Positions 18,145 through 39,677 of a stretch of 57,591 nucleotides of DNA are shown here, in pieces (position 1 is the stretch's first letter; each line of letters opens with the position of its first letter). Source of the stretch: Candidatus Moraniibacteriota bacterium (GTDB lineage Bacteria > Patescibacteriota > Minisyncoccia > Moranbacterales > UBA1568); contig JAQTRS010000001.1 of NCBI GenBank assembly GCA_028711705.1, positions 265,657 to 323,247 on the forward strand, read 5' to 3'. The notes under the pieces are model-generated. The model did not search any database. It saw only the letters and a program-made list of their open reading frames with translations, and was not told where the DNA came from. A program made the translations under genes and the position numbers.

Positions 18145-18990
18145 TCATTTACCATTAATTAGGGCTATATTCCTCTTGTAAAAATCGTATGTCTCCTGCA
18201 AACCCTGTCCCATAGGCGTCAATCCGACATTTTCTATAAGCGCATTACTCGCCAATGGGCACACGAGGGTTTCCTGCATACCCTTATCGATAACAGCTAC
18301 CTTTTCATAGATCGATTCTTCGATATGAGAAATCACCTCTCCTAATGTCAGTAATTGTTGCGTCCCAAGGTCGGTGGATCCGTCATAGGATGCCTCGATG
18401 GCAAATCGGACGAATTTGGCCATGTCAGCGGCAAACATAAAATCACGCTTCGCATTCATATCGAAAATTTCCGTCGGCGCATGCATCAGATGATTGCACA
18501 GCACATTGGCGACAAAACTTCCCTGCTTGAATGGTATCTGATACTTCCCAAATATGTTGAACAGCCGGAAAATGACCGGTTTTATGTCATTCGCTTTCGC
18601 ATGCTGCGAAATCACCGATTCAAGGATCGCTTTTCTCTGAGCGTATTCGGAAGTGGGATTGGCATACAGCACTGCCGACGAAAAAAGTATGATCTGAGCA
18701 TTATCCGCGAACCGTATATTGCCAAGCAGCCGCCTCTCCTGTCTCTCAAACTCATCCAGGGATATGGCATTATCAATCAGATGGATCACGATATCAAATT
18801 CCCCTTCGATCCTCTCGGCATAAGGATTCGCGGAAATATACGCATCATTTCGATCTCCTTGAAAAAAAGGTGATTTTGCCACGCCGACAGAATGACACCT
18901 ATAATCGGCGCCCAATTCATCGACGATATTCCTCCCGATAAACCCCTCTCCCCCAAGAAGCAAGATATTTTTCTTATGTGAGCTTAACAT
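18145..18990 (-). CDS. NAD-dependent epimerase/dehydratase family protein
   Basis: An extended-SDR protein of 281 residues. The N-terminal GGEGFIGRNIV is the NAD-binding glycine motif; SSAVLY and YAQRK (YxxxK) form the active site; RDFMFAADMAKFV is the usual sugar-side strand. It is shorter than most epimerases (300-340). The start overlaps the end of the large GT fusion by 7 nt and its stop lies 12 nt before the dehydratase, so the three are co-transcribed. A 4-keto reductase or epimerase acting on the product of one of the dehydratases in this locus is the likely role. Confidence 0.8.
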   Translation of the reverse strand: MLSSHKKNILLLGGEGFIGRNIVDELGADYRCHSVGVAKSPFFQGDRNDAYISANPYAERIEGEFDIVIHLIDNAISLDEFERQERRLLGNIRFADNAQIILFSSAVLYANPTSEYAQRKAILESVISQHAKANDIKPVIFRLFNIFGKYQIPFKQGSFVANVLCNHLMHAPTEIFDMNAKRDFMFAADMAKFVRFAIEASYDGSTDLGTQQLLTLGEVISHIEESIYEKVAVIDKGMQETLVCPLASNALIENVGLTPMGQGLQETYDFYKRNIALINGK

Positions 18991-21900: not shown

Positions 21901-22166
21901 GAATTCATCATCGCGATATACTTCCCGGAAGAATTCCGGATGCAATGATTGACGGCAGCAGAAGCTCCTTTGTTCTTATCGAATATGAATAATTTGATTC
22001 TCTTGTCAGTAAACTTTTTGATTTCCTGCACCGTGTCATCGGAAGATCCGTCATCGGTGATAATCAATTCGAAGTCCTGAAAAGTCTGATCCAATATGCT
22101 TTGGATGCACTCTGAGACATACTTCTCATGATTATACGATGGTAAGACGACACTTACTTTTGGCAT
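18984..22166 (-). CDS. Three-domain glycosyltransferase fusion GT2-GT2-GT4
   Basis: A 1060-residue protein with three sugar-transferase domains in a row. Domain 1 (1-230) is GT2 with SVVLPSYNHEKYV, TDDGSSDDT and the metal site MNSDD (87-91). A helical, coiled-coil-prone region (about 330-420) follows. Domain 2 (441-665) is GT2 with SVVTPFYNHGKTI, NDGSTD and LDSDD (527-531). Domain 3 (700-1060) is GT4 with MPWLTFGGAETVV, FIGRLSPEKNPDVF and the EX7E motif in KMEGFPLSNIEAMAMG. All three retain the catalytic motifs, so the protein may add up to three residues of the repeat unit. It follows the aminotransferase gene with 1 nt between them. Confidence 0.9.
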   Translation of the reverse strand: MPKVSVVLPSYNHEKYVSECIQSILDQTFQDFELIITDDGSSDDTVQEIKKFTDKRIKLFIFDKNKGASAAVNHCIRNSSGKYIAMMNSDDVFVEDKLEKQVEFLDNHGDFGAVVSHLLPIDEDGNEFFDKNLFDHVHFEQENRGRYGWMREAFFGKNNFAHPSALIRRDCYRGIGYYDERFAQVPDWDFWIRLCQKYEVHIMPERLLKYRIRSKSQNISADKPEKRIRTAWEMIFMLDNFLNLDATEVKIVFPELEGVPIQDDIDVRYNIALLALNNDITISHKIFGISLLFRLAHDQASLEILSSRYGFTVSDLIALSGREVALDPSLFFRKEQIIQQNNIPLREKDLIIEKNSALLQEKEDALYDLYHSRIIRPVILLRDKLRVYMYHARTIKSKIEARLLRAAKKYLNEDIREIARQFLPKKYQVITKKVSNAKWDGPLISVVTPFYNHGKTINETVESVLNQTFQNFEYIIVNDGSTDTESNDVFESINHPKIIKISQSNAGVSMARNKGIKGAKGKYILCLDSDDKIDATYLEKSLVVLESNPGIDIVYSDMHFFGLEERVYKEPEFNPRLLYKNNIITTAAIFRRSMWEKCGGYKSGIGFEDWEFWMNAVESGAVARRIPEPLFLYRRAADSRYTEDKKKKDEHIQKIHKLHPNFHKSARGVPIEKYIFSGHSQLINFFDEKEYLRGSLDRKNVLLIMPWLTFGGAETVVYNFCLRNKDIFNFSIITGHKSDNEWEYKFKEITSNIYHLPNLFRREDEYLEFVLNYIRTRSIDIIHIVHNSFFYSSLPTVKEKFPDIKIVSTVFNTLADHLRNSISAGRLIDIHTTDNMKVRAAFLEEGIRKSSVCVIYNGIDCYGRFDPSKYNRYREREKLDLKKDDLAVYFIGRLSPEKNPDVFVEAARKLIMNNDRMKFFVVGDGPMRVSIEKSIGSVGGNIKYLGYQEDISRFLSTADVFVLPSKMEGFPLSNIEAMAMGVCVVASNVGGVGDAVSEGVTGFLVPPNNSDEIAKKLELIIKNPEMRKEVSSNARKLVEEKFSVGMLAENYKKLYNDILC

Positions 22167-22167
22167 A

Positions 22168-23310
22168 CTAGTTTCCCTTAAAGCTACTTATCAAATCGCA
22201 GATCCGCTCAGCATCATCAGGCGATATTCCTCCATGAAAAGGCAGTGCCAATACCCGATCAGCCACATCATTGGCAATCGGCAATCGCTCTTCTTTGGCG
22301 GAAAAAAAGTCCCGATAAAATTTGGCATTGCTGCACAATGGATAAAAATATTTTCTTGAAAAAACGTTGTGCTTTTTCAGATTTTCATGGACATAATCGC
22401 GCGAAAAACCAAATTGAGCAGCATTTATCCTGATAACGAAGTACTGCAAACTCTCTTTCGTAACATCCCCGCTTTTCCGCGGCAATATGACCCCATCCAC
22501 ACCCCCCAACCTGTCATGGAAGATGCCTTCGATCATGGCCCTGTGATTCCTCTCTATATCCTTCTCTGTCAGCATCAACAGACCGATCGATGCCTGCAAT
22601 TCATTCATTTTACCATTTATGCCGCATTCGATCACCTCTTCATTCTTGATACCGAAGTTCTTCACGATATCACATTTCTCTTTCAAATGTTTATCCTTAA
22701 AAACGATAGCGCCGCCCTCAACCGTATGAAAAAGTTTGGTCGCGTGAAAACTGAATACGGACGCGTCTCCATAGCATGCAACGCTTTTTCCGTTAAGCTC
22801 CAACTCAAATGCATGCGCAGCATCATAGATAACCTTCAGATCATGCTTCCGAGCAATCTCCGCTATTTTTTCAACCTCGCAAGCTCTCCCAAAAACATGC
22901 ACCGCTAAGATCGCCTTCGTATCAGCCGTTATGAGACTCTCGATTTTCTTGACATCGATATTCATTGAATCCGGATCGATATCGCAAAAAACAGGTTTAA
23001 GACCCGCCCATGTGATCGAGTGCGGCGTTGCCGGAAACGTAAAGGGCGTCGTAATAACTTCCCCGCTAGTGATACCGAGTGTCTTAAACGCGACAATGAG
23101 TCCTATCGTAGCATTTGAAACAAGGGATGTCGGAAATCCATCGAATATCTCGGCTTGGAGACGCGCTTCCAACTCCTGATGCTTATACCCGTTATTCGTG
23201 AGCCACCCCGACTTCCACACCTCTTGCAGTTCACCCTTGAAATCGTCTAAATCCACCAAAACAGGCTTTGCTATAACGACAGGATTTTCAAATGAGGGTC
23301 TGTTAGGCAT
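22168..23310 (-). CDS. DegT/DnrJ/EryC1 sugar aminotransferase
   Basis: A PLP-dependent aminotransferase of 380 residues that aminates keto sugars. The PLP lysine lies in VFSFHATKLFHTVEGGA (Lys near residue 193), with DAAHAFE upstream holding the PLP-pyridine aspartate. The FHATK...EGG form is typical of 4-keto-6-deoxy sugar aminotransferases. It could act on the product of the CapD/PglF-like enzyme in the same operon or on GDP-4-keto-6-deoxymannose from Gmd. The start region has a fair ribosome-site-free leader; the stop is 1 nt from the GT fusion. Confidence 0.9.
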   Translation of the reverse strand: MPNRPSFENPVVIAKPVLVDLDDFKGELQEVWKSGWLTNNGYKHQELEARLQAEIFDGFPTSLVSNATIGLIVAFKTLGITSGEVITTPFTFPATPHSITWAGLKPVFCDIDPDSMNIDVKKIESLITADTKAILAVHVFGRACEVEKIAEIARKHDLKVIYDAAHAFELELNGKSVACYGDASVFSFHATKLFHTVEGGAIVFKDKHLKEKCDIVKNFGIKNEEVIECGINGKMNELQASIGLLMLTEKDIERNHRAMIEGIFHDRLGGVDGVILPRKSGDVTKESLQYFVIRINAAQFGFSRDYVHENLKKHNVFSRKYFYPLCSNAKFYRDFFSAKEERLPIANDVADRVLALPFHGGISPDDAERICDLISSFKGN

Positions 23311-23319
23311 AAATAAGGT

Positions 23320-23862
23320 CTACTGATCAATTTTTTTCGCGACAACCGTATAGTGAATCGGCATCAGAAATCTCTCTGATTCAAGAGCGTTCAGCGCCAA
23401 AATCTCCCACCCATGACTCAACAATGCTCTCCAGCCATGCTCGCTGAATCGCCAGCAATCGGGCAATGGACCGTGTATGCGAAAATCAAAAGGGGCTGAG
23501 AAGAAAGCGAGCCCATCTTGCTTCAGCATCCTTCTGATCTCAACGACCGCAGCAAAAGGATTGAGCGTGTGCTCCAAAACCTCCGCGCACAACACCCTAT
23601 CAAATCGACTGTCAGGTATGATACGCGAATTTTCAACACATATATCCGCGATGTATGTGGCTGAAGAATTCGGATCGATATCTAACGTTTCAATGGAACA
23701 TTCCCTGAACCACTCCTTCGCTCCGGCATGATCCTGGGGCGCAACGTCGAGCAGTAACCCGCCGTCGTCATATTTTTTTGCGCAATCCTCGATAAAATGG
23801 GAAACATTGTCTCTCAGAAGTTTGAAATGTCGCAAATCCCGTTCATCAATTTCTTGTTTCAT
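23320..23862 (-). CDS. Class I SAM-dependent methyltransferase
   Basis: A 180-residue methyltransferase. The first motif reads GGLLLDVAPQDHAGAKEWF, followed by the acidic strand end ETLDIDPNSSATYIADICVE, and then FDRVLCAEVLEHTLNPFAAVVEIRRMLKQDGLAFFSAPFDFRIHG, the usual methyltransf_11 pattern. The Gly-rich motif I is weak (DVAPQDHAG), as in several short sugar-locus methyltransferases. A GGAAG ribosome site precedes the start. It lies 4 nt after the ATP-grasp/HAD gene and 9 nt before the aminotransferase. N- or O-methylation of the amino sugar is possible but not shown. Confidence 0.8.
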   Translation of the reverse strand: MKQEIDERDLRHFKLLRDNVSHFIEDCAKKYDDGGLLLDVAPQDHAGAKEWFRECSIETLDIDPNSSATYIADICVENSRIIPDSRFDRVLCAEVLEHTLNPFAAVVEIRRMLKQDGLAFFSAPFDFRIHGPLPDCWRFSEHGWRALLSHGWEILALNALESERFLMPIHYTVVAKKIDQ

Positions 23863-23866
23863 GCAA

Positions 23867-25156
23867 TTATTTCTTCCAACTGATTAAACTTTCCAAAGAG
23901 CTGACCTCAAACGTCGGTATAGCTTTCTTTTCATAGACAGCCAGGCGTTCCTGAAAAGAATCGTCGATAAAAATTGAGGGATACTCGTTGATATAAGTAT
24001 CCTTGCTATCAGATACGCCGATATCATCTATACTATCGAAAACTTCCGATATCCTGAATTTCTTCAAGACATCCCTGATGTCCTCCCCGAACCTCTCCTT
24101 GTGCCGGGATAATAGATGTATTTTAATTCCCTCGTTAAAACACTGGTATAGATATGCCATTACGACAGGATTCACTTTTCCGTCAAAGATGATGGTATCA
24201 TCCAAATCTATATATACATGCCGATACTCCAATTCCGCCCGGAACCTGTTGAAAAGAGCCCTATCCATCACGATACCATACTGATTCGGCATGATGCGAA
24301 CATCTATACCCAATGTATCAAAAATACTCAATAATGGGAAATTCACGCCTAAATTTCTATATAAGGCCATACTGCCGGCAATACGGGGAGCCACCTCTAA
24401 TAATGATAATTCCCCATTCCGATCCTCTTTTACCTGAAAAAACCACGCTCCATGAAACAGGAGCTTCTGATTGATTTTCTCCGCCATGGACCTGAATTTC
24501 TGCATATCTGCCGGAAATGTACGTACGCTTATACCGCCAGAGATCCGCCCTCGCTCGCGAGCGCCAGAAAAAAGCAACTCCCGATTCTTATCGGTAAAAC
24601 AATCGATGGTGTATTCTTTTCCTGGCAGGTATTCCAACATCAGGAGCGTTGGATCCTTCTTAGCGTAGAATTCGATGTCCTCGATACATGAAGCCGTATA
24701 GGTACCCCTGGATCCCTGCCCGACATCAGGCTTTAAAAAAACAGGGTAGCTGCGGATTTCATCTGCGGACGCATATATCTGCGGCACATTGATACTCCCC
24801 CTCAAGAAATCATATGTTTTCTTTTTCGATCGACAGGTTTCACATGTCTCGACGGGTGAGCTGATAATTCCGCAAGACAACGCCTGCTTGTTTTGTACCA
24901 ATTTCAAAACGACACTGTCATGGGCGGGAAATATGAAATCTATGGCATATTTTTGGACTATCTCCTCCATTCTTTCGATAAAATCCGCATCCTCAACATC
25001 AGGGATATCCCCTATATAATTCGAGTAGACATATTCCCCGTGATTGGAAACGCTTGAACCTCCAAAAAGGGCCACATGTGTAGACCATTTCAACGCATTA
25101 TGTATCTCAAGGGCGATTTCCGAGCCGCAAGGAAAAACAAGGATGTTTTTTTTCAT
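23867..25156 (-). CDS. ATP-grasp ligase fused to a C-terminal HAD domain
   Basis: A 429-residue fusion. Residues 1 to about 300 form a CarB-like ATP-grasp: KKNILVFPCGSE, VFLKPDVGQGSRGTY (ATP loop), MLEYLPGKEYTIDCF, and the metal-binding LSLLEVAPRIAGSMALY. The last ~115 residues are a HAD domain with VYIDLDDTIIFDG (motif I), LLSRHKERFG and FIDDSFQER (motif IV). I start at MKKNILVF; an upstream start adds six residues without support. ATP-grasp enzymes activate a carboxylate with ATP and join it to an amine, alcohol or thiol. In this locus it may amidate or acylate a sugar; which one, and what the HAD part does, is unknown. Confidence 0.85.
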   Translation of the reverse strand: MKKNILVFPCGSEIALEIHNALKWSTHVALFGGSSVSNHGEYVYSNYIGDIPDVEDADFIERMEEIVQKYAIDFIFPAHDSVVLKLVQNKQALSCGIISSPVETCETCRSKKKTYDFLRGSINVPQIYASADEIRSYPVFLKPDVGQGSRGTYTASCIEDIEFYAKKDPTLLMLEYLPGKEYTIDCFTDKNRELLFSGARERGRISGGISVRTFPADMQKFRSMAEKINQKLLFHGAWFFQVKEDRNGELSLLEVAPRIAGSMALYRNLGVNFPLLSIFDTLGIDVRIMPNQYGIVMDRALFNRFRAELEYRHVYIDLDDTIIFDGKVNPVVMAYLYQCFNEGIKIHLLSRHKERFGEDIRDVLKKFRISEVFDSIDDIGVSDSKDTYINEYPSIFIDDSFQERLAVYEKKAIPTFEVSSLESLISWKK

Positions 25157-25210
25157 AACGATAATCGATACCAAATAACCGGCTTATTCCAGATACTGCT
25201 ACTTCGAAAT

Positions 25211-26485
25211 CTATTTCAATACACCTGCGCCTTCCCATATATAATCCAAAACTATCGGACCTTCGTTCTTATTTTTTGAAATGACCCTGAATTTTCGCAT
25301 TTTTTCAGCGAAAGGATACGCGTATGCCAAATGAGGATGTATCCCGATCACATTGGCATAAACATGAAATAAGCCCTCATGAAGAGGAACATGTTTAAAA
25401 TCTATTCGGAAAAATCCATCTTCAACGTATTTTACCGTATCGATTTTATCTAAGAACGTATTTATTCCGAATAGATATACCCCATTCTCGTCATGAATCC
25501 GAACACCGAAATCAACCGTCTTCGACGTATCGAACAATTCAAAATGAACTTTTACGGATACGTCGTCACCGCTCTCGAACACATTTTTTTCATTATTATC
25601 CGCATCAAAAAATTCTATCCTGGAAATTTCAGCAACCCTACGATTCGCATCATTCGCTTCCGATTCTTCATTTTCAACAGCCTTTGCATTCTTTTCTGAT
25701 TGATCTGCACTCTCCTTCTCCTCATCGATAATCCGTCTCTCTTCATCCGACATGTTTTCATATACATACTCGTTTGAAACTTCCTCAGCCGTTCCTATCT
25801 TCATTATCACGCCATTGCGTAAAAGTATCGCTTTATCGCAATACTTCTGTATCACAGAAATATCGTGGGTCACGATAATAACCGTCCGACCCATATCTTT
25901 ATACTTCACGAATTCCGTAAGGCACTTGCTCTGAAAGTTGCTATCCCCCACTGCTAAGACTTCGTCCATCAGGAGGATATCGCGATTAGCATGGATGGAA
26001 ACAGAAAACGCGAGACGGACCTGCATGCCGCTCGAATAATTTTTGAGTTTCTGATCGATAAACTTCTCAAGTTCCGAGAACTTCACGATGTCGTCGAACT
26101 TCTCGTCGATCTGCTTCTGCGTCATCCCGAGCACGGTCGCATTGAGATAGATATTATCCCGTCCCGAAAGCTCGGGATTGAATCCGATACCGAGCTCCAA
26201 AAACGGCGAGATCATCCCATCGATATGCACCCTCCCCTTATTGGGATGATAGATCCCCGCCAGAATCTTCAGCAGCGTCGACTTGCCGCTGCCATTCCGC
26301 CCGATGATACCGAAGAACTCGCCCTTCTTCACCTCGAAGCTCACGTCATCAAGGGCTTTGAACTCTTCGTAGGTGGAGTGCTTGAAGACGCTCACAAAGG
26401 CCCCGCGCAGGCTTGACACCTTTTCATGCGGGATCCTGAATGTCTTGGAGACGTTGTGTACTTTGATGGCGATGTTTTTGTACAT
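25211..26485 (-). CDS. wzt: Polysaccharide ABC exporter ATPase with C-terminal carbohydrate-binding domain (Wzt)
   Basis: A 424-residue ATPase energising polysaccharide export. Walker A is GRNGSGKST (62-70), the ABC signature YSSGMQ (150-155), Walker B ILLMDE (170-175), and the switch histidine is in VTHD (205-208). After a charged linker (245-285) comes a Wzt_C-type beta-sandwich domain (about 287-424) that reads the glycan end. The ATG chosen lies 7 nt after wzm; a much longer open frame runs back into wzm but is out of frame with that gene and lacks similarity. GC changes from about 53% to about 40% near codon 195, so only the N-terminal part resembles the flanking genome. Confidence 0.93.
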   Translation of the reverse strand: MYKNIAIKVHNVSKTFRIPHEKVSSLRGAFVSVFKHSTYEEFKALDDVSFEVKKGEFFGIIGRNGSGKSTLLKILAGIYHPNKGRVHIDGMISPFLELGIGFNPELSGRDNIYLNATVLGMTQKQIDEKFDDIVKFSELEKFIDQKLKNYSSGMQVRLAFSVSIHANRDILLMDEVLAVGDSNFQSKCLTEFVKYKDMGRTVIIVTHDISVIQKYCDKAILLRNGVIMKIGTAEEVSNEYVYENMSDEERRIIDEEKESADQSEKNAKAVENEESEANDANRRVAEISRIEFFDADNNEKNVFESGDDVSVKVHFELFDTSKTVDFGVRIHDENGVYLFGINTFLDKIDTVKYVEDGFFRIDFKHVPLHEGLFHVYANVIGIHPHLAYAYPFAEKMRKFRVISKNKNEGPIVLDYIWEGAGVLK

Positions 26486-26492
26486 AGTTTTG

Positions 26493-27272
26493 CTAGATTT
26501 CTTCGGCGACATTAACGGAAAATTTCCTGTACGCAAGGACGCTGAGTCCGAATCCTGCCACAAGGACAGCAAAAAAAGCACTGTATTGCCAACTCTCCGC
26601 GAAGTGTCCGGTTGTGAGGGATTCCTTGGTGAAGTGGATAATAAAGGCCATCGGATTGGCGAGAAGGACCTGTTGAATGTACAACGGAAGCATCTGAAGC
26701 GGATAGATGATCGGTGTCGCATAGAAAAGAATAGTAAGAACGACCTCCCATACCAAAATAAGATCGCGCAAACGCACGTACAATGGGGCCATCAGAAGAC
26801 CGAATGCCAAGACGATGGCATATATGGAAAGAGAGAATAGGATGAACATCACAACAGCCGCAAAACTCGGCAGGAACTGATACCATGCGAAGAATGCGAT
26901 GATCACCACGAGATTCATCGCATAGACCAGCGCCGAATTGAGCGTGGAGGCGACGATGATCGTCCAACGCGGGATGTATATCTTGGTCACCAATTGCGAC
27001 TTGTTAAGGAGCGACGACATGCTCGCCATCGTTCCTTCGGAAAAGAAGTTGAACATGATAATCGCCGTCAAAAGCTGGAGCGTGTAGTATTCATTACCAC
27101 CAGACCCGCGAGGATTGAAAATGGACGAGAAGACGAAATTGAGGATGGCGAACATGAGCAGCGGCTTAAGCAGGGCCCAGACATACCCCAAAACAGACCC
27201 GTGATAACGGAGTTTGAAATCTGTCTTGGCGAGTACCCAGACCAGCTCGCGGTAATTCTCATGTTTGCGCAT
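26493..27272 (-). CDS. wzm: ABC-2 polysaccharide/polyol-phosphate export permease (Wzm)
   Basis: A 259-residue inner membrane permease with six hydrophobic helices. The N-terminal LVWVLAKTDFKLRYHGSVLGYVWALLKPLLMFAIL is typical of Wzm/TagG/KpsM proteins, and YATPIIYPLQMLP stands in the last third, as in the family. It forms the pore for the polysaccharide with Wzt, encoded 7 nt downstream. The start follows TAAGGGATACTATG. GC is close to that of the housekeeping genes, unlike the transferase genes of the locus. Confidence 0.92.
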   Translation of the reverse strand: MRKHENYRELVWVLAKTDFKLRYHGSVLGYVWALLKPLLMFAILNFVFSSIFNPRGSGGNEYYTLQLLTAIIMFNFFSEGTMASMSSLLNKSQLVTKIYIPRWTIIVASTLNSALVYAMNLVVIIAFFAWYQFLPSFAAVVMFILFSLSIYAIVLAFGLLMAPLYVRLRDLILVWEVVLTILFYATPIIYPLQMLPLYIQQVLLANPMAFIIHFTKESLTTGHFAESWQYSAFFAVLVAGFGLSVLAYRKFSVNVAEEI

Positions 27273-27359: not shown

Positions 27360-27794
27360 TTATTCGGTCACCTTCAGAAGACCCCACTGTCCGCCGGCGC
27401 GATGCCCCGGCATGGAACAATAGTAGGTGAACTCGCCCACCTTGTCGGCAGTGAACTCGATCACGGTCTCCTCGTTGAGCGGCGTCATCTTCTTGATACC
27501 GTATTCATCGATAGCGAAATCATGCGATCCTTTAGTATTGGTCACTCTGATACGGACCTTATCCCCCTTCTTGACACTGATTTCCTTGAGCGAGAACCAT
27601 TTCCCGGCCTCGTCATAGTACGAGGTCATCGAGAATTCCTTCATATCGCCTGCGGTAGCTGCAATATCGTCGTTCATCGCCTGATTCTTCTCCACCTGCG
27701 TCGGAGCTGCCGGCGCCGCCGCCTTATCCCCCCGCATGGCAAAAAACGCAACCACCCCGATAACGATCACCGTTCCCGCAATAAGCTTTCCCAT
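27360..27794 (-). CDS. Membrane-anchored cupredoxin (type 1 copper protein) with a glutamine at the axial position
   Basis: A 144-residue protein: an N-terminal membrane helix (2-20), an Ala/Pro-rich linker, then a plastocyanin-like domain (about 52-144). Copper ligands are His91 (KGSHDF), Cys126 and His131 (YYCSMPGHRAGGQWG). At the axial position, where most plastocyanins have Met, stands Gln136, as in stellacyanin-type proteins. It should act outside the membrane as an electron carrier or copper store. It has its own extended -10 promoter and is not obviously tied to the glycan genes. Confidence 0.88.
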   Translation of the reverse strand: MGKLIAGTVIVIGVVAFFAMRGDKAAAPAAPTQVEKNQAMNDDIAATAGDMKEFSMTSYYDEAGKWFSLKEISVKKGDKVRIRVTNTKGSHDFAIDEYGIKKMTPLNEETVIEFTADKVGEFTYYCSMPGHRAGGQWGLLKVTE

Positions 27795-27878: not shown

Positions 27879-28271
27879 TTATTTTGCTTTTCTGTGGGCC
27901 CGGACAATAATTATGCCGCTCACAAAAACAAAGATGACAGAAGTCATAAGAAAAACACTCCCCTTTTCAATAGGAAACATCCAATCATGACTATATGCAG
28001 GCGCAAGAACAATAAACAACATAGAAACGGGCGTTGCGATACAGGCAAACTTCCACCATTTCTGAAAGATCTCTTCTTGCATACGATATGTTATGAGAGA
28101 AAAGAGAAAAAGCAGGAAGAATGGAAAGAAAGTTATAGCTATACTATCAAATTTCTCGATACAAGCACCGTAACTATGCGGTGGACAAATACCAATTTCC
28201 CTGGAGAAAATAAAGATTCCCGAAAAAATCATCGCAACAATAGAACCAAACAATACACTTTTCTTTGTCAT
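27879..28271 (-). CDS. Four-helix membrane protein of unknown function
   Basis: A 130-residue protein with four predicted membrane helices (about 5-25, 45-65, 73-92, 101-122). Two cysteines, CPPHSYGAC (near 29-37), sit in the first extracytoplasmic loop and could form a disulfide. The C-terminus is basic (RAHRKAK), fitting a cytoplasmic end. I recognise no family. It lies 42 nt after the large secreted protein and before the cupredoxin on the same strand. Confidence 0.6.
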   Translation of the reverse strand: MTKKSVLFGSIVAMIFSGIFIFSREIGICPPHSYGACIEKFDSIAITFFPFFLLFLFSLITYRMQEEIFQKWWKFACIATPVSMLFIVLAPAYSHDWMFPIEKGSVFLMTSVIFVFVSGIIIVRAHRKAK

Positions 28272-28313: not shown

Positions 28314-31300
28314 TTAATAATAAATCACTATCTTTCCCTTTTCTGTGCGGACGCCAGGCACAACAAGACCTGATATGCGTTCCTTGACAGAAGTTTCACT
28401 ATCACCCTCGTCGTTATGTCCTTTTTCATCGCTCGGTATTCTCCGAACAATACTCGTCATATCATCCCTTGATTGGTACTTCGCTTGAATTCCACCGGAT
28501 TGACTCTTTATTTGCGCTTCAAATTCACGATACGCTTGAGTTTTCTTGTTGATTTCAAATTCATATTTAATAGATGTTTTCGACATATCCGTTTCAACAC
28601 CGCCATATGCTATGGATTGCAATATCAAAACATCCTGCTTCTTCTCATCCTTTTCTTTGTTTGATCCGAAAACAAGCGCTATTTCATGTCCCGCCTCATC
28701 CTTCAATGTCACAACACCACCCTTTGTGGCAACAGCTACGGAGGAAAGAGCGTCTATGCCGACAATGTTTATTTTCTGCATCAACGGATCGAATGCTATC
28801 CGTGCTTCTGGAGCTATCGTATCTATCCTAACCGTAACCTCACGAGTCTCTTCCTTCATTCCCTGCATATTCACAGAAAAATACCGTACTTTTGAGAGTC
28901 CCTCTTTCGTAATAGTAAATGGTTCCGCATAGACTGTCCATGTTTCACCATCATCCAGAGAATATCGCGTTTCAGCAATGCCGCTTTCATCATCTACAGG
29001 AGACAGGGTTACCGCGGCATCACTCATATACCAACCGCCAGACCCGGCCTTCCCTTCAATCGAGTATGTCGTTATGGGGGCGGTCGCATCAAAAACAATC
29101 TCTTCCCCTACTTTTGGGTACAAGTGAAAGTCTTGAGCACCGTCACCGTCCTCATCTACGCGAAGTGCGGATATTTCAGTGAACTTTTCGGTTGTGTCCA
29201 AAAAGACTTTGGTCTCTTTGGTTGTGGGAACATCTTTAAACGTGACTTTCCCCACAGAAGCATCACCCCTCAATTCCTCAACCTCGAAAGTGAATACTCC
29301 CTCATCATATCCCTCCATGCTCACGTGCAAAGGAGTTGTTTCATCGGCAAAGATATATTTCACCTCACCGAATTGTCGATAATATGTCCCCGGAATTTGC
29401 TCTTCGATACGACCATCCTTATCCAAGCCCGTATGACGGCCCTGGTCATCGGTAAGATTAAGTGATAGCGGTGAATGTAGGGAGTATTGCAAGCGAGTTC
29501 CATCAGACATTGGCACTTGGGTTACAATATACTCGTACTCATTTAATGGTCTCGATGTATGAGTAATAATATCCTCAACAAAAGTATCAATCTCCGTAAT
29601 CTCAAACAAATCTGAATGGTCAACTTTTAGTAGTCGCCCTTCTCTAGCTCTACTTGAGAGGCTATTATATTTCCCCATATCCACCCAGTACCGCTCAGCG
29701 CCATCCATCCATAAGGCGCTCGGCGTCACGACCGTTCCATCTCCATCCACCGTAAACATCGGGCTGGATTTCAACGTATCTTTTTCCATGGTATACTGCA
29801 TGCCGCTCACAGTTGCAGGCACACCCCAGCCGGCAATCTGCACAACTTTCACACCAGAAGGAGCATGCCAACCATCCACCTCATCATGCCGATTCTCAGC
29901 AGCAGAAAGCAGGTCATTATCAAGCTTACTCGGCTTTTCGGTATCCGAACTTATCGCATCCACCCGCTCATATACATCCGTAAGAAAATTATGCATGCCT
30001 TCCTGCGAATTGATAACATCCCCATATTTCCCACTCCATTCAGGAAGCTTTTCCGAATCGAAGGTAACCACAGGCGTCCCAACGGTATCAAAATACTTAT
30101 CAGAAGGAAGCAGGGTGTACGCTGAGGACATATGTTCTGCCAATCCGCGTGCCGTCGATTTGGAAAGAATCAATCCGCCAAGCAAATCCTGATCATACCC
30201 GTGAAGCATCGCGCCAACCGCGACGGGCGTCCCAAGTTGCGGGACACCAACCATCACAACCTCATCGATAAGCTTTTGAGTCTCCACATCACCTATCTTT
30301 TGCATCAAAGCCTTGGCCACCAAACCGCCGTTCGAATGCGTAACGATCGTAACCTTTCCAGTCCTCGACGACGACGCCAATCGCTTAAGTTCACCGATGA
30401 TATGCGGTGCGATCGATTCACCGTTATACGAAATATTCTCTCCGCTGACCACGCCTCCGTTCACAATATCTTCAAGGGACAACCTCCAATCATACGGAAC
30501 TGCTTGCCAATCATTGATAAGATGATCATCATTCTTCAAAGAATCCATCGTATCAATAAATGACTCATAAATATTTGACCCGGAGATATTGACCTCGTCC
30601 AAAACATCCCGGGTATAAATATCGTATGCATCTGTGCTTTTTCCGTTTGAATCCAGATATAATTTCTTTACATCCTCATTGCGATTCGGTTCCCACAGCT
30701 GATTCTCACAATTGACGAACGTACAATCCGGATCATCTTTGGCATACAATCGACTCGCCTCAACTCCCGGCAAAAACAAAACATTCGAAAAGCAATCCTC
30801 AATGCAACCGACCGGCTGCATCCGGACGAACGGTGCTTGTGCGAATGGGCGGAAAAGCAAGACGCCATCGCCCTCGATCCTATCGCCCGAAGCATCGGCG
30901 TTGGACGCTTCGAAAGCGGATGCTTGGAAATTCGGGCCACTCGCATCGCCCCACCAATTGTTTCGCATCACGACTTTCTGACGGCATTCCTCCGCAGGAA
31001 ATTCAGTCGAGCAATACCCACGGGAAACGACCGCCGTCGATTGGGCATTATCCCCGAAATTCGAATTCGAAACGTGAAAAAAGTCCGTCCTGTTATACTC
31101 GACGAATTGTCCATTAACCCAAATATCCGCGTAGCGATTGCCGATAAAATCGACATGCTCGAAAGTCACCCGCCCGCTCATATACACCACGGCCGGCATC
31201 CCCCACGCGCATTCGCCCGCCGCCAATGCCGTATCGATCAGGAGGGACCTGAAATACGAGGTCGTCCCGCATTCATCCGGATCGGTATATGATCCGCCTG

Positions 31301-31757
31301 ATGTGATATCCACATACTGTAAAAGCGAAGCCTTTCCGACAGTGCCATCTATCCCCTCTTCATAATCCACGAATGTTATGGTAAACGGCGTATTATTATC
31401 CGAGGTAAATACGATAGGCTCGCTTTCCGTTCCCGAGGCAATAATATTGCCCCACATCACGTCCATGGCACCGCCGTTCAGACGCACCTGGGCTCCCGCC
31501 TCGATGGTAAGTGTCGCATTATTATCGATAAAAACCGGCTTATCGAAGGTGAGCGTGTCACTTTTGTGCCACACGGTATCCAAATTGATGTACTCGTACT
31601 GCGATGTCCAATCTTCCTCCCCCGGAGGGATATCGTTCAGCGCCAAGGCGTGTGGAATTACCGATTGAAACAAGAATCCGCCCATCCACATGGCAACAAC
31701 CCCGAAAACAAACGCAAAAACACCTCCATAAACCCTCCTTCTCGCTCCTTGCAGCAT
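28314..31757 (-). CDS. Large secreted beta-helix / LCAT-like hydrolase
   Basis: A 1147-residue exported protein. Residues 10-40 are a signal or anchor helix. Residues 60-300 form a right-handed beta-helix-like region ending in NNWWGDASGP. Residues 322 to about 700 resemble lecithin:cholesterol acyltransferase/lipase enzymes: VLFLPGVEASRLY, PYDWR (421-425), the nucleophile Ser475 in VTHSNGG, GVPQLGTP (504-511), then VDGDGTV and VDHSD as likely Asp and His of the triad. The C-terminal third has OmpL47/Ig-like beta domains (ITTYSIEGKAG...YSLDDGETWTVY). It probably hydrolyses or transfers acyl esters at the cell surface. A -10 TATACT lies 34 nt before the start. Confidence 0.82.
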   Translation of the reverse strand: MLQGARRRVYGGVFAFVFGVVAMWMGGFLFQSVIPHALALNDIPPGEEDWTSQYEYINLDTVWHKSDTLTFDKPVFIDNNATLTIEAGAQVRLNGGAMDVMWGNIIASGTESEPIVFTSDNNTPFTITFVDYEEGIDGTVGKASLLQYVDITSGGSYTDPDECGTTSYFRSLLIDTALAAGECAWGMPAVVYMSGRVTFEHVDFIGNRYADIWVNGQFVEYNRTDFFHVSNSNFGDNAQSTAVVSRGYCSTEFPAEECRQKVVMRNNWWGDASGPNFQASAFEASNADASGDRIEGDGVLLFRPFAQAPFVRMQPVGCIEDCFSNVLFLPGVEASRLYAKDDPDCTFVNCENQLWEPNRNEDVKKLYLDSNGKSTDAYDIYTRDVLDEVNISGSNIYESFIDTMDSLKNDDHLINDWQAVPYDWRLSLEDIVNGGVVSGENISYNGESIAPHIIGELKRLASSSRTGKVTIVTHSNGGLVAKALMQKIGDVETQKLIDEVVMVGVPQLGTPVAVGAMLHGYDQDLLGGLILSKSTARGLAEHMSSAYTLLPSDKYFDTVGTPVVTFDSEKLPEWSGKYGDVINSQEGMHNFLTDVYERVDAISSDTEKPSKLDNDLLSAAENRHDEVDGWHAPSGVKVVQIAGWGVPATVSGMQYTMEKDTLKSSPMFTVDGDGTVVTPSALWMDGAERYWVDMGKYNSLSSRAREGRLLKVDHSDLFEITEIDTFVEDIITHTSRPLNEYEYIVTQVPMSDGTRLQYSLHSPLSLNLTDDQGRHTGLDKDGRIEEQIPGTYYRQFGEVKYIFADETTPLHVSMEGYDEGVFTFEVEELRGDASVGKVTFKDVPTTKETKVFLDTTEKFTEISALRVDEDGDGAQDFHLYPKVGEEIVFDATAPITTYSIEGKAGSGGWYMSDAAVTLSPVDDESGIAETRYSLDDGETWTVYAEPFTITKEGLSKVRYFSVNMQGMKEETREVTVRIDTIAPEARIAFDPLMQKINIVGIDALSSVAVATKGGVVTLKDEAGHEIALVFGSNKEKDEKKQDVLILQSIAYGGVETDMSKTSIKYEFEINKKTQAYREFEAQIKSQSGGIQAKYQSRDDMTSIVRRIPSDEKGHNDEGDSETSVKERISGLVVPGVRTEKGKIVIYY

Positions 31758-31913
31758 ATTCTTTATCGTTACTTATTACCCATGTGTATCAGTATACGAT
31801 AGAAAATATGAAGAAAAAATAAAATCTTTCACAATCTCTATAAAACCAATTTTCTTCCCTTTATAAAAGCAAAAAATATCATAATCATGTTACACAAAGG
31901 CCAGATAAACACG

Positions 31914-31960
31914 CCTACATTCTACCTTGAATCGCAATCGATTTCAAGGTAGAATGTAGG
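31914..31960 (+). repeat. Perfect 18-bp hairpin at the edge of the AT-rich island
   Basis: Arms 31914-31931 and 31943-31960 are exact complements around an 11-nt loop; TTTTAT follows on the plus strand. It lies in the 266-nt gap between the big secreted protein (start) and the HEPN gene (end). It may be a terminator read in either direction, or an end mark of the island. Confidence 0.7.
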
Positions 31961-32023
31961 TTTTATATTCAATTGTACTTTGTGGCTATGAGATGAAGTT
32001 AAAACCTTCTTATCCATTTAAAA

Positions 32024-34407: not shown

Positions 34408-35364
34408 CTAAGCCCCATAATACCCCTTGTACCACTCCACGAAGTTTTTGATCCCTTCTTCGATATTGGTGGTGGGGGCCCAGCCCATGGCGCGGAGCTT
34501 CCCGATATCGGCCACGGTGGATGGGACGTCGCCGGGTTGAATCGGCATCAGTTTCTGGTCCGCCTTCTTCCCGATATTCTCCTCGATCACTTCGATAAAC
34601 CGCGTCAGCTTTTCTTCCCGGTCGCCCCCGATATTCACCACATCGTACTTCAGGTTCGCATTAAGCGTGGTCAGTATGCCCGAGACGATGTCGTCGATAT
34701 ACGTGAAGTTACGCGTCATGTTGCCGAAATTATACACCTCGATCGGCTTGCCTGAGGTGATTTTTTCCGTAAAGCCGAACAGTGCCATATCCGGCCGTCC
34801 CCACGGTCCATAGACGGTGAAGAAGCGCAGCCCCGTCGTATTGAGCCCGTAGACATGGCTGTACACATGCGCGAAGAGCTCATTGCATTTCTTGGTCGCG
34901 GCATAGGGCGAGATCGGCGTGTCGACGGAATCGCTTTCGGAAAACGGGAGCTTGGTGTTATTGCCATAGACCGACGAGGAAGAGGCGTAGACGAAATTTT
35001 GGATTTTGTGCTTCACGGCCGCATCGAGCATATTGAGCGTCCCGCGGACATTCACCTCTTCATACAAGCGCGGATCGAGCAAGGAACTGCGCACGCCCGC
35101 CATCGCCGCCAAGTGCACCACCTTGTCGATGGATTCCTTGGCAAACACCTCCTCAAGGAAGGCAGTGTCGCGGATATCCCCTTCATAGAGAGTGAATTTC
35201 CCCGCGTAGTCCTTCAAAAAAATATCCAAGCGGTCATGCTTGAGCTTGGGATCATAGTAATCGTTGAAATTGTCTATCAGCACCACCTCATCGCCACGGT
35301 CTATCAACGCCTTCGCGGTCGCTGATCCGATGAATCCGGCGCCGCCTGTTATCAATACTTTCAT
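34408..35364 (-). CDS. UDP-glucuronate 4-epimerase-like SDR
   Basis: A 318-residue extended-SDR epimerase. GGAGFIGSATAKAL binds NAD; SSSSVYG and YAATKK give the Ser and YxxxK active site; RFFTVYGPWGRPDMA and NFTYIDDIV match the UDP-glucuronate (GalE2/Cap1J-type) group. It probably interconverts UDP-glucuronate and UDP-galacturonate, using the product of UDP-glucose dehydrogenase encoded at 2.4-3.7 kb. It marks the return to about 55% GC after the AT-rich island, and lies 21 nt downstream of the GT4 gene, in the same direction. Confidence 0.88.
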   Translation of the reverse strand: MKVLITGGAGFIGSATAKALIDRGDEVVLIDNFNDYYDPKLKHDRLDIFLKDYAGKFTLYEGDIRDTAFLEEVFAKESIDKVVHLAAMAGVRSSLLDPRLYEEVNVRGTLNMLDAAVKHKIQNFVYASSSSVYGNNTKLPFSESDSVDTPISPYAATKKCNELFAHVYSHVYGLNTTGLRFFTVYGPWGRPDMALFGFTEKITSGKPIEVYNFGNMTRNFTYIDDIVSGILTTLNANLKYDVVNIGGDREEKLTRFIEVIEENIGKKADQKLMPIQPGDVPSTVADIGKLRAMGWAPTTNIEEGIKNFVEWYKGYYGA

Positions 35365-35385
35365 AGAGTTATTTCAGATTATTGC

Positions 35386-36639
35386 TTATGCTGGAAATGA
35401 CCTTGTTACCTTGCTGTGCAGATACTCATAATATTCCTTGTTCTGCGCATTGGCGGTCGTATACTTCTGCATCGCTTTCGCTTTGGCCTTCTCGCCCATC
35501 GCGGTGCGCAACGGTGCGTCCTCGATCAAACGACACAGTTTTTCCACCCATTCTTCCGTCGTACTGGCGACAAAACCGTCCACGCCATCCTCGATCGCCT
35601 CCTTATACGGCGCCGTGGCCGAAGCGACGGTCGGCACGCCAACGATGCCGGCCTCGAAAAACTTGAGCTCCGATTTGGATTCGCAGAACGGGTTGCCGAT
35701 TTCGAGCGGCGCAAGGTTGATATCCACCGAAGCGACATTGGCGAAATGCTGCGCCCTCGCTGCATACGGGAACTGCTCTATCCTGTCCGCAAAAACGCTG
35801 AGTTTGCTTTCGGTTTCCAATGGTCCCACCAAGAACAATCTAGTCTGCGGATATTTTTCAAGCACTGTCGCCAGCGCATCCGTAATCGTCGCGAAGTCCT
35901 TGTTATGGCTCAGGGTACCGCTGAAATAGCCGATCTTGATGGTATTTTTCCGATTGTCATCCCGAGCATAGTCGAGGGATCCCTTTGCTACTGAAGCAGA
36001 TTCTTCGACAAGCTCAGAATGACACTTGTTTGCAATAACAGCTTCCGCTACCGCCACATCCTCCTGCGTCAATTTATTGGGCACGATAAATACCCGCTTT
36101 CCTTTCTCGCGTAATTTCTCCGCCAAAAAAGTCGTGGTCGTGGTGCAGACTTTCACATATGGATCATTCAATATCTCCCCGCCCACGCCGTTCTCATACA
36201 ATTTCCTTTCCAAATTGTTCATCTTCTGGAAATAGTCCATAAACTTCAGGTACTGCGGATCGAACACCAGATCATCCGTCTCGAAGATGATTTCCTTGTC
36301 CTGCGCCTTGATACGTTCCATCAATTTGGCGACACTGGGCGTATAGAGCACGCGATGGAAAATGAAGACAGAGAATTTGTCCGCATAGCTCGGCAAAAAC
36401 GGATTATCCTGCACCGTGATACCGGTCGTAAGCCCCTGGATTTCCAATTCCTCGGCCACGTGATGCGCGCGATACAGGGCGCTATCCCCCACTCCGCCCG
36501 TGATAAATAGCACATCGCCCGAACCCACCCGTCGGAACAATGCGAAAAACGCCTTGGAAACGCGCCGTCCTCCGCGCCACAAACCTTCCCGTTTCAGGGT
36601 ATGCAAGGCCTTCCCGATTTTTATGAGCAAGAGGTTCAT
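35386..36639 (-). CDS. GT4-like glycosyltransferase carrying an in-frame palindromic repeat
   Basis: A 417-residue GT-B enzyme. The N-terminal half has VLFITGGVGDSALYRAHHVAEEL and FETDDLVFD; the C-terminal half begins KIGYFSGTLSHNKDF and has ESKSELKFFEAGIVGVPTVASATAPYKEAI. Between them the peptide CHSELVEESASVAKGSLDYARDD is encoded by a palindromic DNA repeat, placed in the linker between the two Rossmann domains, so the enzyme can still fold. The ATG overlaps the stop of the upstream GT4 gene by 4 nt (ATGA). Confidence 0.85.
   Translation of the reverse strand: MNLLLIKIGKALHTLKREGLWRGGRRVSKAFFALFRRVGSGDVLFITGGVGDSALYRAHHVAEELEIQGLTTGITVQDNPFLPSYADKFSVFIFHRVLYTPSVAKLMERIKAQDKEIIFETDDLVFDPQYLKFMDYFQKMNNLERKLYENGVGGEILNDPYVKVCTTTTTFLAEKLREKGKRVFIVPNKLTQEDVAVAEAVIANKCHSELVEESASVAKGSLDYARDDNRKNTIKIGYFSGTLSHNKDFATITDALATVLEKYPQTRLFLVGPLETESKLSVFADRIEQFPYAARAQHFANVASVDINLAPLEIGNPFCESKSELKFFEAGIVGVPTVASATAPYKEAIEDGVDGFVASTTEEWVEKLCRLIEDAPLRTAMGEKAKAKAMQKYTTANAQNKEYYEYLHSKVTRSFPA
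35955..36024. repeat. Palindromic repeat element inserted in a coding frame (copy A)
   Basis: About 70 bp, with imperfect inverted ends: TGTCATCCCGAGC...GTCGAGG and TCTTCGAC...GCTCAGAATGACA. On the minus strand it is read as HSELVEES...GSLDYARDD within the GT4 gene. A second copy lies at 41746-41814 in another GT4 gene. Such elements are known from many environmental bacteria as dispersed palindromes. Confidence 0.88.
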
Positions 36640-37811
36640 ACGGTTTTCAATAATGTTTCCAATTTTTCCGCCGACACATCCCAGCTGAACCTAAACGCGC
36701 GCTTTCGGTTCTCCTCGCCGAAGCGCTTGCGTTTCTTGGGGTCATTCACCAGGTTCACGATAGCGTCTGCCAGCCCCGAAGGAGAAAGGTCTTGAGCCAT
36801 CTCATGCTCGGCGCCCAGGTATTCGCGATTGTTTTTCGTATCGAAGCACGCGACCGGAAGACCGGCACCCATATACTGGAGCGTCTTGCCGCTCGCCTGG
36901 CGCACCGACACATCCTTGGGATCCACCCCGATATCGCTCGCATGCAAAAGTTTCGGAAGCTCGAAATACGACAGCGGCGAAATGAAGGTTATGGACGCGG
37001 AAAGGTTCTTACCCTCGAAAAAAGGCTGTATCAGATCGAGCGGAAAGCCGGCAATGACGAAATGGACATCGGGATTAGATCGCAGCACCAACGGTATCGA
37101 CTCAAGAAAATACTGAATGCCTTTGTTGGGAATCAGCGCGCCCGTATAGGTCACGATCACCTTGTTCTCAGGCAAACCAAGTTGTTTTCGTGCTTCCGAC
37201 TGCGAAGGCAGATGCTGATACCACGAATCATTCACGCCATCCAAAAGCGTTTCCGTCGATTTCCCTTTCCGTATCGCGCTGATTTCCTGCGTGTTCTCCC
37301 ACGAACTCGTCACGGCCACATCGCCCATATTATCGATGCGCGCCTCGATCCACTGAAATACCCTTTTCAAAAAACCGGCGCCCAGATAATCATGCGAGAC
37401 CATTTCCTTGGTCAGGCTCCCGTGGAAATCCCCCACCAGCTTGATGCCGCGCCAAAACAGCAGCTTCTGCACGATCCATCCAATGGCCACACCTTCATGC
37501 AGATGCGCGTGTATCACATCGGGCCGCTTTGTTCGCGCCAAGAAAAACACCTTCTTTATGAGAAGTAGATCGAGGATGATCTTCTGCCAATCCGGACCAG
37601 CCTCGAGTTTCTTATACCAGAACAAAAGCCGCCTGATGCGCCGGACATCGATATTCGTCTCAAGCCTCTTGGGCAAATCAGCCCCGATGTGATACGTGGC
37701 CAAAGTGACGCTATGTCCGCGTTTTTCCAAAGCCAAAGCCTCTTCCAGTATGCGGATATGCGTCCCTCGATCAGAGAAAAATGGTGTCGGCGCGATAACG
37801 AGAATTTTCAT
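36636..37811 (-). CDS. GT4-family glycosyltransferase
   Basis: A 391-residue GT-B enzyme. N-terminal MKILVIAPTPFFSDRGTHIRILEEALALEKRGHSV; C-terminal VTYTGALIPNKGIQYFLESI, then SVRQASGKTLQYMGAGLPVACFDT in the donor region, where the usual EX7E is replaced by a weaker pattern (SGKTLQYMGAG). I use the ATG giving MKILV; the longer frame adds 12 residues upstream of a likely leader-less transcript start. The stop overlaps the start of the next GT4 gene by 4 nt. Acceptor and donor are unknown. Confidence 0.87.
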   Translation of the reverse strand: MKILVIAPTPFFSDRGTHIRILEEALALEKRGHSVTLATYHIGADLPKRLETNIDVRRIRRLLFWYKKLEAGPDWQKIILDLLLIKKVFFLARTKRPDVIHAHLHEGVAIGWIVQKLLFWRGIKLVGDFHGSLTKEMVSHDYLGAGFLKRVFQWIEARIDNMGDVAVTSSWENTQEISAIRKGKSTETLLDGVNDSWYQHLPSQSEARKQLGLPENKVIVTYTGALIPNKGIQYFLESIPLVLRSNPDVHFVIAGFPLDLIQPFFEGKNLSASITFISPLSYFELPKLLHASDIGVDPKDVSVRQASGKTLQYMGAGLPVACFDTKNNREYLGAEHEMAQDLSPSGLADAIVNLVNDPKKRKRFGEENRKRAFRFSWDVSAEKLETLLKTV

Positions 37812-37819
37812 ATGGTTTA

Positions 37820-37825
37820 AGTATA
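37820..37825 (-). promoter_or_regulatory. -10 element giving an almost leaderless GT4 transcript
   Basis: TATACT on the minus strand 8 nt before the ATG; the expected start of transcription is 2 nt before the start codon. No clear -35 is seen. Confidence 0.45.
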
Positions 37826-37877
37826 GCGGAAAAGTGAAGCGGCTCAAAATAGCACATTCTTACTTTATCCAACTATT

Positions 37878-37892: not shown

Positions 37893-39677
37893 ATGAACAC
37901 ACCCGCGCCTTCCATGCAAGAGTATCGCTTTTTCACTGCCATCACTCTCGGCTTCGTTTTTTGGCTTTTCCTTGGCCTTATTCTTGCCCTCAGCCATGCT
38001 TTTTTCACGCCACTCCTCTGGATTTCCCTGGCGGCCACGCTCGGTTTGGGCGCCTATATCGTTCATATCAAAAAACTCTGCCGCGATATCTCAAAGGAAT
38101 TCCTTATCGTTACGGGTATTGCCATCGCTATCGCCGCAAGCATCGCCTTCATCACCGCTCCCACCATTTTCTCCGGGCGCGACCAAGGGTCCTATAGCGC
38201 CGCCGCCATCCACCTGGCACAAAACCATCAGCTCGCATTTTCCACTCCCGCGTCGAGCGCCTTCTTCGATGTGTACGGTCCCGGCAAAGCCCTCAATTTC
38301 CCCGGCTTCGACTACACCAAGGACGGATTCCTCACCACCCAGTTCCCTCTCGGGTATATCGTCTGGCTCGCCTCCTTCTTCGCGCTTTTCGGACTGGCAG
38401 GACTTGGCATCGCCAACGCCGTCACGCTCGCGCTGTTTTTGATCGCCTTCTATCTCCTCATCAGACTCTTCGCCTCCCGTTTCTATGCCATCTGGGGACT
38501 GGTCATCGCGGCCACCTCCCTCCCGGTCGTCTGGTTTTCCAAATCGACGCTGAGCGAAAACCTCGCACTCACGCTCTTCGTTTTGCTCGCGCTCAACCTG
38601 ATCCTCGCCTTCAAGGAAAGATCCACGCTCCACACGGCGCTCTCGCTCGCTCTCGCCTCATTTTTCATCTTCACCCGCATCGAGGGGTTCACCTTTTTCG
38701 CTATCACCCTCATCCTTCTTTCCTTTTCCGCCAAAGCTCGCGCGCTTTGGAAATCAAGACCATTCGCCCATGCGATCTTTCCGGCAATCATCCTCTCTAT
38801 CCTTTTCATCCGCAATTTCTTCGCCGACCTCCCTTTCTACAAGGCTATCGGCAAGGCCGGCCAAAGCAAATGGCATTCCTTTTTCAAGCCCTGCATTGCT
38901 GCTGATTGCATCGACGACAAGACCCTTTCCCTCTGGAGCATCTTCTGGCCATACGGATTGATTCCTGTTTTCATTATCGGCACTGTCAGCCTCATCATCC
39001 TCGCCAAAAGCCGCAACAAACTTGCGCTCATCCCGCTTATCCTCGCCCTCCCGACCTTTTTCTATGTATTCTCACCAAGCATCTCCATCGATCACCCCTG
39101 GATGCTGCGCCGCTTCATCTTCTCGATCTATCCGAGCCTCCTGTTTTCGGCCATCCTCGGCATCGCCACCATCCAAGCCTTCCTCACCAAACGATACGCG
39201 AATCACTTCCTTTTCAAGCGGCACTACTATAGCCTCCTTCTGCTTGCCGCCCTTCTCATTTCCCAGCTCCCCTTCGCCCTAAAGTATGCGACCTTTTCCG
39301 AGAACAAAAACCTTCTCATACAGACCCAGGAATTCGCCTCCCATTTCTCCGGGGGCGATCTGGTTCTTGCGGACCGACTGGCCACCGGCGATGCCTGGTC
39401 CATGCTTCCCGAACCGATGCATTATTTCGGCATACGAAACGCCGCCTATTTCTTCAATCCGGAAGACTTTGCTAGACTGGATACATCCGGTTTCAAGCAT
39501 GTCTACCTTATCGTCCCGGAGGCCGAAGCCGCCCGCTACACGCAAGCGTCCTCCAAACAGTTCACGCCGATCGCAACCTTCGACTTCGATTCCGAAAGGC
39601 TGATACCATCGACCAAAAGCATGCTTCCGCAAAAGATAAGCGAAACAACCACAGCGCTTGTCCTAAAAGTTGAATAA
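37893..39677 (+). CDS. GT-C type membrane glycosyltransferase (ArnT/PMT-like)
   Basis: A 594-residue membrane protein with about 12 helices. The first extracytoplasmic loop has FSGRDQGSYSAAAIHLA, the acidic motif (D near residue 96) typical of GT-C enzymes, and further on GFDYTKDGFLTTQFPLGYIVWLA. The last ~110 residues are soluble. GT-C enzymes use polyprenyl-phosphate sugars outside the membrane. It has a divergent promoter shared with the GT4 gene to the left and is followed after 5 nt by a single-helix exported protein that might be its partner or substrate. Confidence 0.78.
   Translation: MNTPAPSMQEYRFFTAITLGFVFWLFLGLILALSHAFFTPLLWISLAATLGLGAYIVHIKKLCRDISKEFLIVTGIAIAIAASIAFITAPTIFSGRDQGSYSAAAIHLAQNHQLAFSTPASSAFFDVYGPGKALNFPGFDYTKDGFLTTQFPLGYIVWLASFFALFGLAGLGIANAVTLALFLIAFYLLIRLFASRFYAIWGLVIAATSLPVVWFSKSTLSENLALTLFVLLALNLILAFKERSTLHTALSLALASFFIFTRIEGFTFFAITLILLSFSAKARALWKSRPFAHAIFPAIILSILFIRNFFADLPFYKAIGKAGQSKWHSFFKPCIAADCIDDKTLSLWSIFWPYGLIPVFIIGTVSLIILAKSRNKLALIPLILALPTFFYVFSPSISIDHPWMLRRFIFSIYPSLLFSAILGIATIQAFLTKRYANHFLFKRHYYSLLLLAALLISQLPFALKYATFSENKNLLIQTQEFASHFSGGDLVLADRLATGDAWSMLPEPMHYFGIRNAAYFFNPEDFARLDTSGFKHVYLIVPEAEAARYTQASSKQFTPIATFDFDSERLIPSTKSMLPQKISETTTALVLKVE

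Follow-up and report, generated by a model that had tools for sequence, protein, structure and literature searches.

The gene at positions 28,314 to 31,757 of the window (the whole 57,591-nucleotide stretch of Candidatus Moraniibacteriota DNA analysed here) raises two questions: what its large product does, and to whose lipids. The initial annotation described an open reading frame for a secreted LCAT-like hydrolase with PYDWR, THSNGG and GDGTV motifs. This was borne out, as the frame is open from an ATG and its product scores 53.9 bits with Pfam LCAT (PF02450), for which the cut-off is 21. The gene is present in a single copy in a 1.16-Mb genome rated as 99.5% complete. Its layout is as follows.

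28314..31757, reverse strand: gene for the predicted secreted LCAT-family enzyme, 1147 aa; open frame from ATG, Pfam LCAT match at E=2.3e-14
31644..31757, reverse strand: signal-peptide-like N-terminus, residues 1-38, with RRR, a hydrophobic stretch and ALA in the sequence
30843..31595, reverse strand: probable right-handed beta-helix region, residues 55-305, ending NNWWGDASGP; motifs, Beta_helix/NosD matches in relatives, profile match to L033
29553..30791, reverse strand: LCAT-type alpha/beta hydrolase domain, residues 323-735; Pfam, homologue alignment, profile against PDB
29094..29525, reverse strand: conserved beta-sandwich-like "IPG" domain, residues 745-888, motif EEQIPGTYY; co-conserved with the LCAT domain (alignment A3), modelled strands
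28824..29030, reverse strand: OmpL47-type domain, residues 910-978; NF047446, E=2.6e-14
28317..28823, reverse strand: undescribed C-terminal module, residues 979-1147, ending SGLVVPGVRTEKGKIVIYY; alignment A4

Hydrophobicity over 19 residues peaks in the segment that starts at residue 12, and hydropathy analysis revealed no hydrophobic C-terminal anchor or membrane segment, so that retention at the surface, as suggested in the initial annotation, is no more than a possibility. The Ig/OmpL47-like domains anticipated after the hydrolase were recovered as the OmpL47-type match to NF047446 (53.4 bits against a cut-off of 40). Identity with OmpL47 itself was rejected, the equivalog model scoring 33 where 250 is required. 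The C-terminal module, whose end pattern across alignment A4 is G-L-x-T-x-K-G-x-Y, occurs in 23 of 380 genomes, nearly always on LCAT open reading frames. One exception is found in genome G093 (L029), where the module forms the C-terminus of a protein that also has an M23-peptidase-like region and an OmpL47-type domain. Given this distribution, a role as a general sorting signal was rejected.

The beta-helix said to precede the hydrolase is the weakest part of the domain assignment. The N-terminal region of the window protein has no Pfam match. Relatives with the same layout match Beta_helix (L033, 8e-8) or NosD (G265, 2e-18; G340, 7e-25), and a profile of four N-termini aligned with the L033 helix region at E=7e-5 (probability 63%). 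Together with the NNWWG..GP motif, and with a low-confidence model that shows short strands, these matches make a right-handed beta-helix probable. Other family members carry different N-termini, and a survey of domain order showed that beta-helix, LCAT and Ig-like domains are not conserved as a unit. The constant unit is the LCAT domain followed by the IPG domain (strands modelled at pLDDT about 50-85), the N and C ends being swapped between members.

The LCAT domain scores above cut-off in 62 of the 380 sampled Patescibacteria genomes and in only one of 14 well-known control genomes. The window protein falls in a clade, with support of 100/100, that includes Moranbacteria and Lloydbacteria members. 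The family is therefore phylum-wide and not an oddity of one genome. No plasmid relatives were found. Four IMG/VR contigs filed as viral (L146-L149) encode LCAT-like relatives at 22-29% identity and may be misfiled cellular DNA.

Hydrolase domain and predicted catalytic triad

PYDWR, THSNGG and GDGTV occupy residues 421-425, 473-478 and 672-676, respectively. The full candidate triad comprises the following codons.

30333..30335, reverse strand: predicted catalytic Ser475 (THSNGG), invariant in 36 homologues and aligned with the serine that is mutated in PLA2G15 S165A (structure 4x92)
29739..29741, reverse strand: predicted catalytic Asp673 (GDGTV), invariant and aligned with GDGTV/GDDTV of PLA2G15/LCAT
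29616..29618, reverse strand: predicted catalytic His714 (DHSDL), invariant and aligned with LCAT QHLNM

The 36 homologues in alignment A3 come from throughout the phylum and share 20-59% identity with the LCAT+IPG region of the window protein. The PG of the oxyanion loop, W355, Y422-D423-W424, H474-S475-x-G-G, G672-D673 and H714 are unchanged in all 36. Judged from this alignment, the invariance of triad, PG loop and PYDW at such divergence is far beyond chance.

A profile of the 36 homologues matched PLA2G15 (E=2e-22) and LCAT (E=8e-21) in the PDB, with the whole hydrolase domain aligned. The alignment takes in the GDN..IP lid region and the LLP motif, which we take to be features of the LCAT family and not of hydrolases at large. 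The alanine of the PLA2G15 S165A structure falls exactly opposite Ser475. HMMER aligns the catalytic histidine correctly in LCAT; in PLA2G15 its register is presumably slipped by about 12 residues, going by the known motif. A single-sequence phmmer search of the PDB with the LCAT protein returned no match. AlphaFold models, which took in four genome-contig loci as their only relatives, reached a mean pLDDT of 55.7 for LCAT+IPG and 38.5 for the full protein, with low values in the Asp/His region that make them too poor for triad geometry. The best alpha/beta-hydrolase matches to the weak model in Foldseek were nevertheless LCAT and PLA2G15 (probability 0.93-0.98, E about 3e-3 to 7e-3); the full-length model yielded only antibody-type noise and DUF4425.

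That these models do not confirm the triad geometry, and the large beta-rich domains, would suit an inactive adhesin built on an LCAT fold. We consider this very improbable, as triad and oxyanion motifs are invariant in 36 divergent homologues. The assignment of the full triad rests on invariant S475, D673 and H714 and on the profile alignment to solved LCAT and PLA2G15 structures. The protein is predicted to be a secreted serine acyl-hydrolase or acyltransferase of the LCAT-PLA2G15 family.

The adjoining membrane-protein gene

The enzyme gene is followed by a second gene that the initial annotation missed.

27879..28271, reverse strand: partner gene, 130 aa, four predicted TM segments with Cys29 and Cys37 between TM1 and TM2; 42 bp past the LCAT stop, same strand

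This gene is single copy in the genome. Its relatives lie directly after the LCAT gene at 10 of 11 clade-A loci, and a profile of the family (family 1) finds matches in only six of the 380 Patescibacteria genomes; each of the six has a member of the close LCAT clade, with the match adjoining it (Fisher p about 2e-12). A second partner site, beside an LCAT fragment, is present in G185. In another LCAT clade the same place is taken, at eight loci out of eight, by a second family, whose 3-TM members often have SLSNFGF at the C-terminus. Between LCAT clades, the partner families show no sequence relationship (hhalign probability 0.2%). Counting any small polytopic neighbour, 24 of 40 LCAT loci have one, against 6 of 147 background genes from the same stretches (p=2e-14; TM segments were called by simple hydropathy, the background set is local and loci from related genomes are not independent). 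Of the six background matches, one (G210) seems itself to belong to an LCAT-linked array. An adjacent TM gene is missing at 17 of 39 LCAT loci, so self-protection of this kind cannot apply throughout the family. Searches of Pfam, NCBIfam, PADLOC and PDB sequences gave no convincing match for the partner family. Directly after the partner gene, the window encodes a cupredoxin-like protein (27360-27794, reverse strand; Pfam 2.6e-9), to which no match was found beside the close relatives L031-L034.

The partner was less conserved than the enzyme in every pair compared (45/45 and 28/28, 73 in all), and extra or tandem copies occur in eight genomes (L034, G185, G240, G140, G035, G181, G210 and G355). 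In L034, G185, G240 and G355, LCAT 3′ fragments that lack the catalytic core are each accompanied by a partner gene of their own, which mostly overlaps the fragment or lies within a few bases of it. Tandem duplication of the 3′ end with its partner could be a passive event. Arrays of an LCAT 3′ fragment plus a small TM gene, resembling orphan effector-immunity cassettes, were seen at L034 8020-10211, L106 2599-4444, L108 2710-3897 and L125 741-2143.

Adjacency, clade specificity, rapid divergence of the partner and orphan or tandem copies form the pattern of an effector-immunity pair, and each was observed here. If the partner only served the enzyme, its gene should degenerate along with that of the enzyme, yet it is kept beside fragments, which argues for an immunity-like role. 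Most likely, the co-directional 4-TM protein is a dedicated partner that would shield the producer's membrane or block the enzyme there.

The main rival to immunity is a working partner, that is, a small lipid flippase or importer, or a membrane anchor, receiving lysolipid or fatty acid. Four TM segments suit flippases of SMR or GtrA size, and one partner member has a weak GtrA match (E=0.03). Strict adjacency to the LCAT gene and the genome's need for lipids are also in keeping with such a role, and divergent tandem copies could form heterodimers. On the other hand, unrelated partners in different clades would be odd for a single transport function, copies persist beside fragments devoid of a catalytic core, and many LCAT loci have no partner at all. 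We regard a transport role as possible but doubtful.

Another reading is that the enzyme serves chiefly in attack or predation, breaking host or competitor membranes, and forms an effector-immunity system with its partner, lipid gain being secondary. Fast partner divergence, tandem copies, copies kept next to broken enzyme fragments and the variable ends around a constant catalytic core are consistent with this role, and LCAT-family enzymes aid parasite exit from host cells in Toxoplasma (PMC5830472). However, the catalytic domain sits in mid-protein instead of forming an exchangeable C-terminal tip, toxin-delivery domains were not found and the PADLOC search was empty. A primary role in attack is thus conceivable without being probable. 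A CDI/Rhs-type polymorphic toxin was rejected, the catalytic domain being central and constant instead of extreme C-terminal, with the ends varying.

Lipid supply and proposed mode of action

No match to ketoacyl synthase (PF00109), PlsC-type acyltransferase (PF01553) or CDP-alcohol phosphatidyltransferase (PF01066) was found in the 99.5% complete genome. Among control genomes, PF00109 and PF01066 are present in 14 of 14 and PF01553 in 10 of 14. Because these three lipid-synthesis families are missing, scavenging of lipids from a host by the secreted enzyme is plausible. Presence or absence of LCAT and PlsC over the 380 genomes shows no association (14/69 versus 53/311, p=0.49), indicating that lipid auxotrophy alone does not account for LCAT carriers. 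A secreted phospholipase-A-like enzyme in a genome without the three families is a specific, testable candidate.

Some CPR genomes have been described in which lipid synthesis is incomplete, as have small-cell fractions and membranes rich in lysolipids, and phospholipase A has been put forward as the origin of these lysolipids (PMC7242380); according to a 2024 review, the routes of lipid uptake and breakdown are unidentified (PMC11665869). Phospholipase use by CPR cells on their hosts has thus been proposed before. A literature search for LCAT in CPR found no publication, and the enzyme family, its spread and its membrane partner appear new as far as the literature was searched. The original suggestion that the protein obtains or remodels host lipids thus stays plausible in view of the missing families and the lysolipid-rich fractions, but draws no support from the LCAT-PlsC comparison.

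Many lysolipids in small-cell CPR fractions (PMC7242380) would also fit a protein that remodels its own envelope (phospholipids, lipoglycans or O-acyl groups on surface polysaccharide) and not host lipids. So would the position of the gene within a cluster for surface polysaccharide export and glycosyl transfer. We think this unlikely: homologues lie in other contexts, the flanks of L033 share no polysaccharide genes with the window, and the large adhesive-type N-terminal domains point outwards.

The polysaccharide cluster covers window positions 18984-27272 and 34408-37847 and includes a Wzm/Wzt-type ABC exporter, glycosyltransferases, a DegT aminotransferase, ATP-grasp_Ter and an NAD epimerase. 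Upstream of the LCAT gene, a near-perfect inverted repeat at 31905-31970 (CATTCTACCTTGAA...TTCAAGGTAGAATG) may be a terminator, a regulatory hairpin or a small mobile element. The segment 32000-34240 is AT-rich (GC 0.295 versus 0.43-0.53 around it), has open reading frames without Pfam matches and looks like foreign DNA. A 594-aa open reading frame at 37893-39677 (forward strand) has no convincing Pfam family.

On balance, we lean towards a secreted phospholipase A or acyltransferase predicted to act on a host membrane, with a self-protecting or accessory membrane partner. The enzyme would be exported by Sec; on either side of its catalytic core, the probable beta-helix and the Ig-like domains may serve adhesion or presentation. 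In membrane phospholipids, the Ser475-Asp673-His714 triad would cleave the ester-linked acyl chains, releasing fatty acid and leaving a lysophospholipid, or else would transfer the acyl group to a different acceptor. Its target is probably the membrane of the cell's bacterial host. The products would either supply the parasite's own membrane, which it seemingly cannot make de novo, or destabilise the envelope of the host; the 4-TM partner would presumably guard the producer's membrane in an immunity-like fashion. Counting against this account are AlphaFold models too poor to place the triad, the LCAT loci without an adjacent TM gene, the missing link between LCAT and PlsC occurrence, the chance that duplication of the 3′ end plus partner was passive, and the lack of a PlsC-family acyltransferase in the genome to re-use freed fatty acids.

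A wider version, which we put forward tentatively, would be a widespread two-part Patescibacteria system in which LCAT-type phospholipases with exchangeable ends are each guarded by one of several unrelated 3-4 TM immunity families, so that a lipid-auxotrophic epibiont digests its host's membrane and not its own. The pair is a concrete candidate for the taking of lipid from a host without self-damage in parasitic bacteria, and the partner offers a second handle, since it predicts self-protection or product uptake.

Comparison with known systems

The window enzyme shares with PLA2G15 and LCAT (PF02450) the PG oxyanion loop, PYDWR, the nucleophile elbow, the GDN lid region and the GD(G/D)TV aspartate. 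It differs from them in being bacterial and distant, in lying between a probable beta-helix and Ig-like domains, and in its extra IPG domain and genetic pairing with small TM proteins. Unlike LCAT proper, a sterol acyltransferase, its sequence carries no sign of a sterol acceptor or of apolipoprotein activation, and by E-value it is slightly nearer to PLA2G15.

The known immunity proteins of the T6SS lipase effectors (Tle) are periplasmic proteins or lipoproteins, whereas the window partner is a small polytopic membrane protein and no T6SS evidence was found here. The likeness lies in the gene arrangement, in which a membrane-damaging lipase adjoins a protecting gene (PMC13133936 for Tle1).

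By description, Vamp_34_196 of Vampirococcus lugosii is likewise a predicted secreted phospholipase of a CPR bacterium, with the same proposed use of host lipids; the portion of that report consulted here states no enzyme family and mentions no partner (PMC8080830). TgLCAT of Toxoplasma and PfLCAT of Plasmodium, also likened by description, are LCAT-family phospholipases of parasites, in other organisms and hosts. These apicomplexan enzymes act in egress from host cells (PMC5830472, PMC10325081), for which the catalytic serine of the Toxoplasma LCAT is required (PMC5830472).
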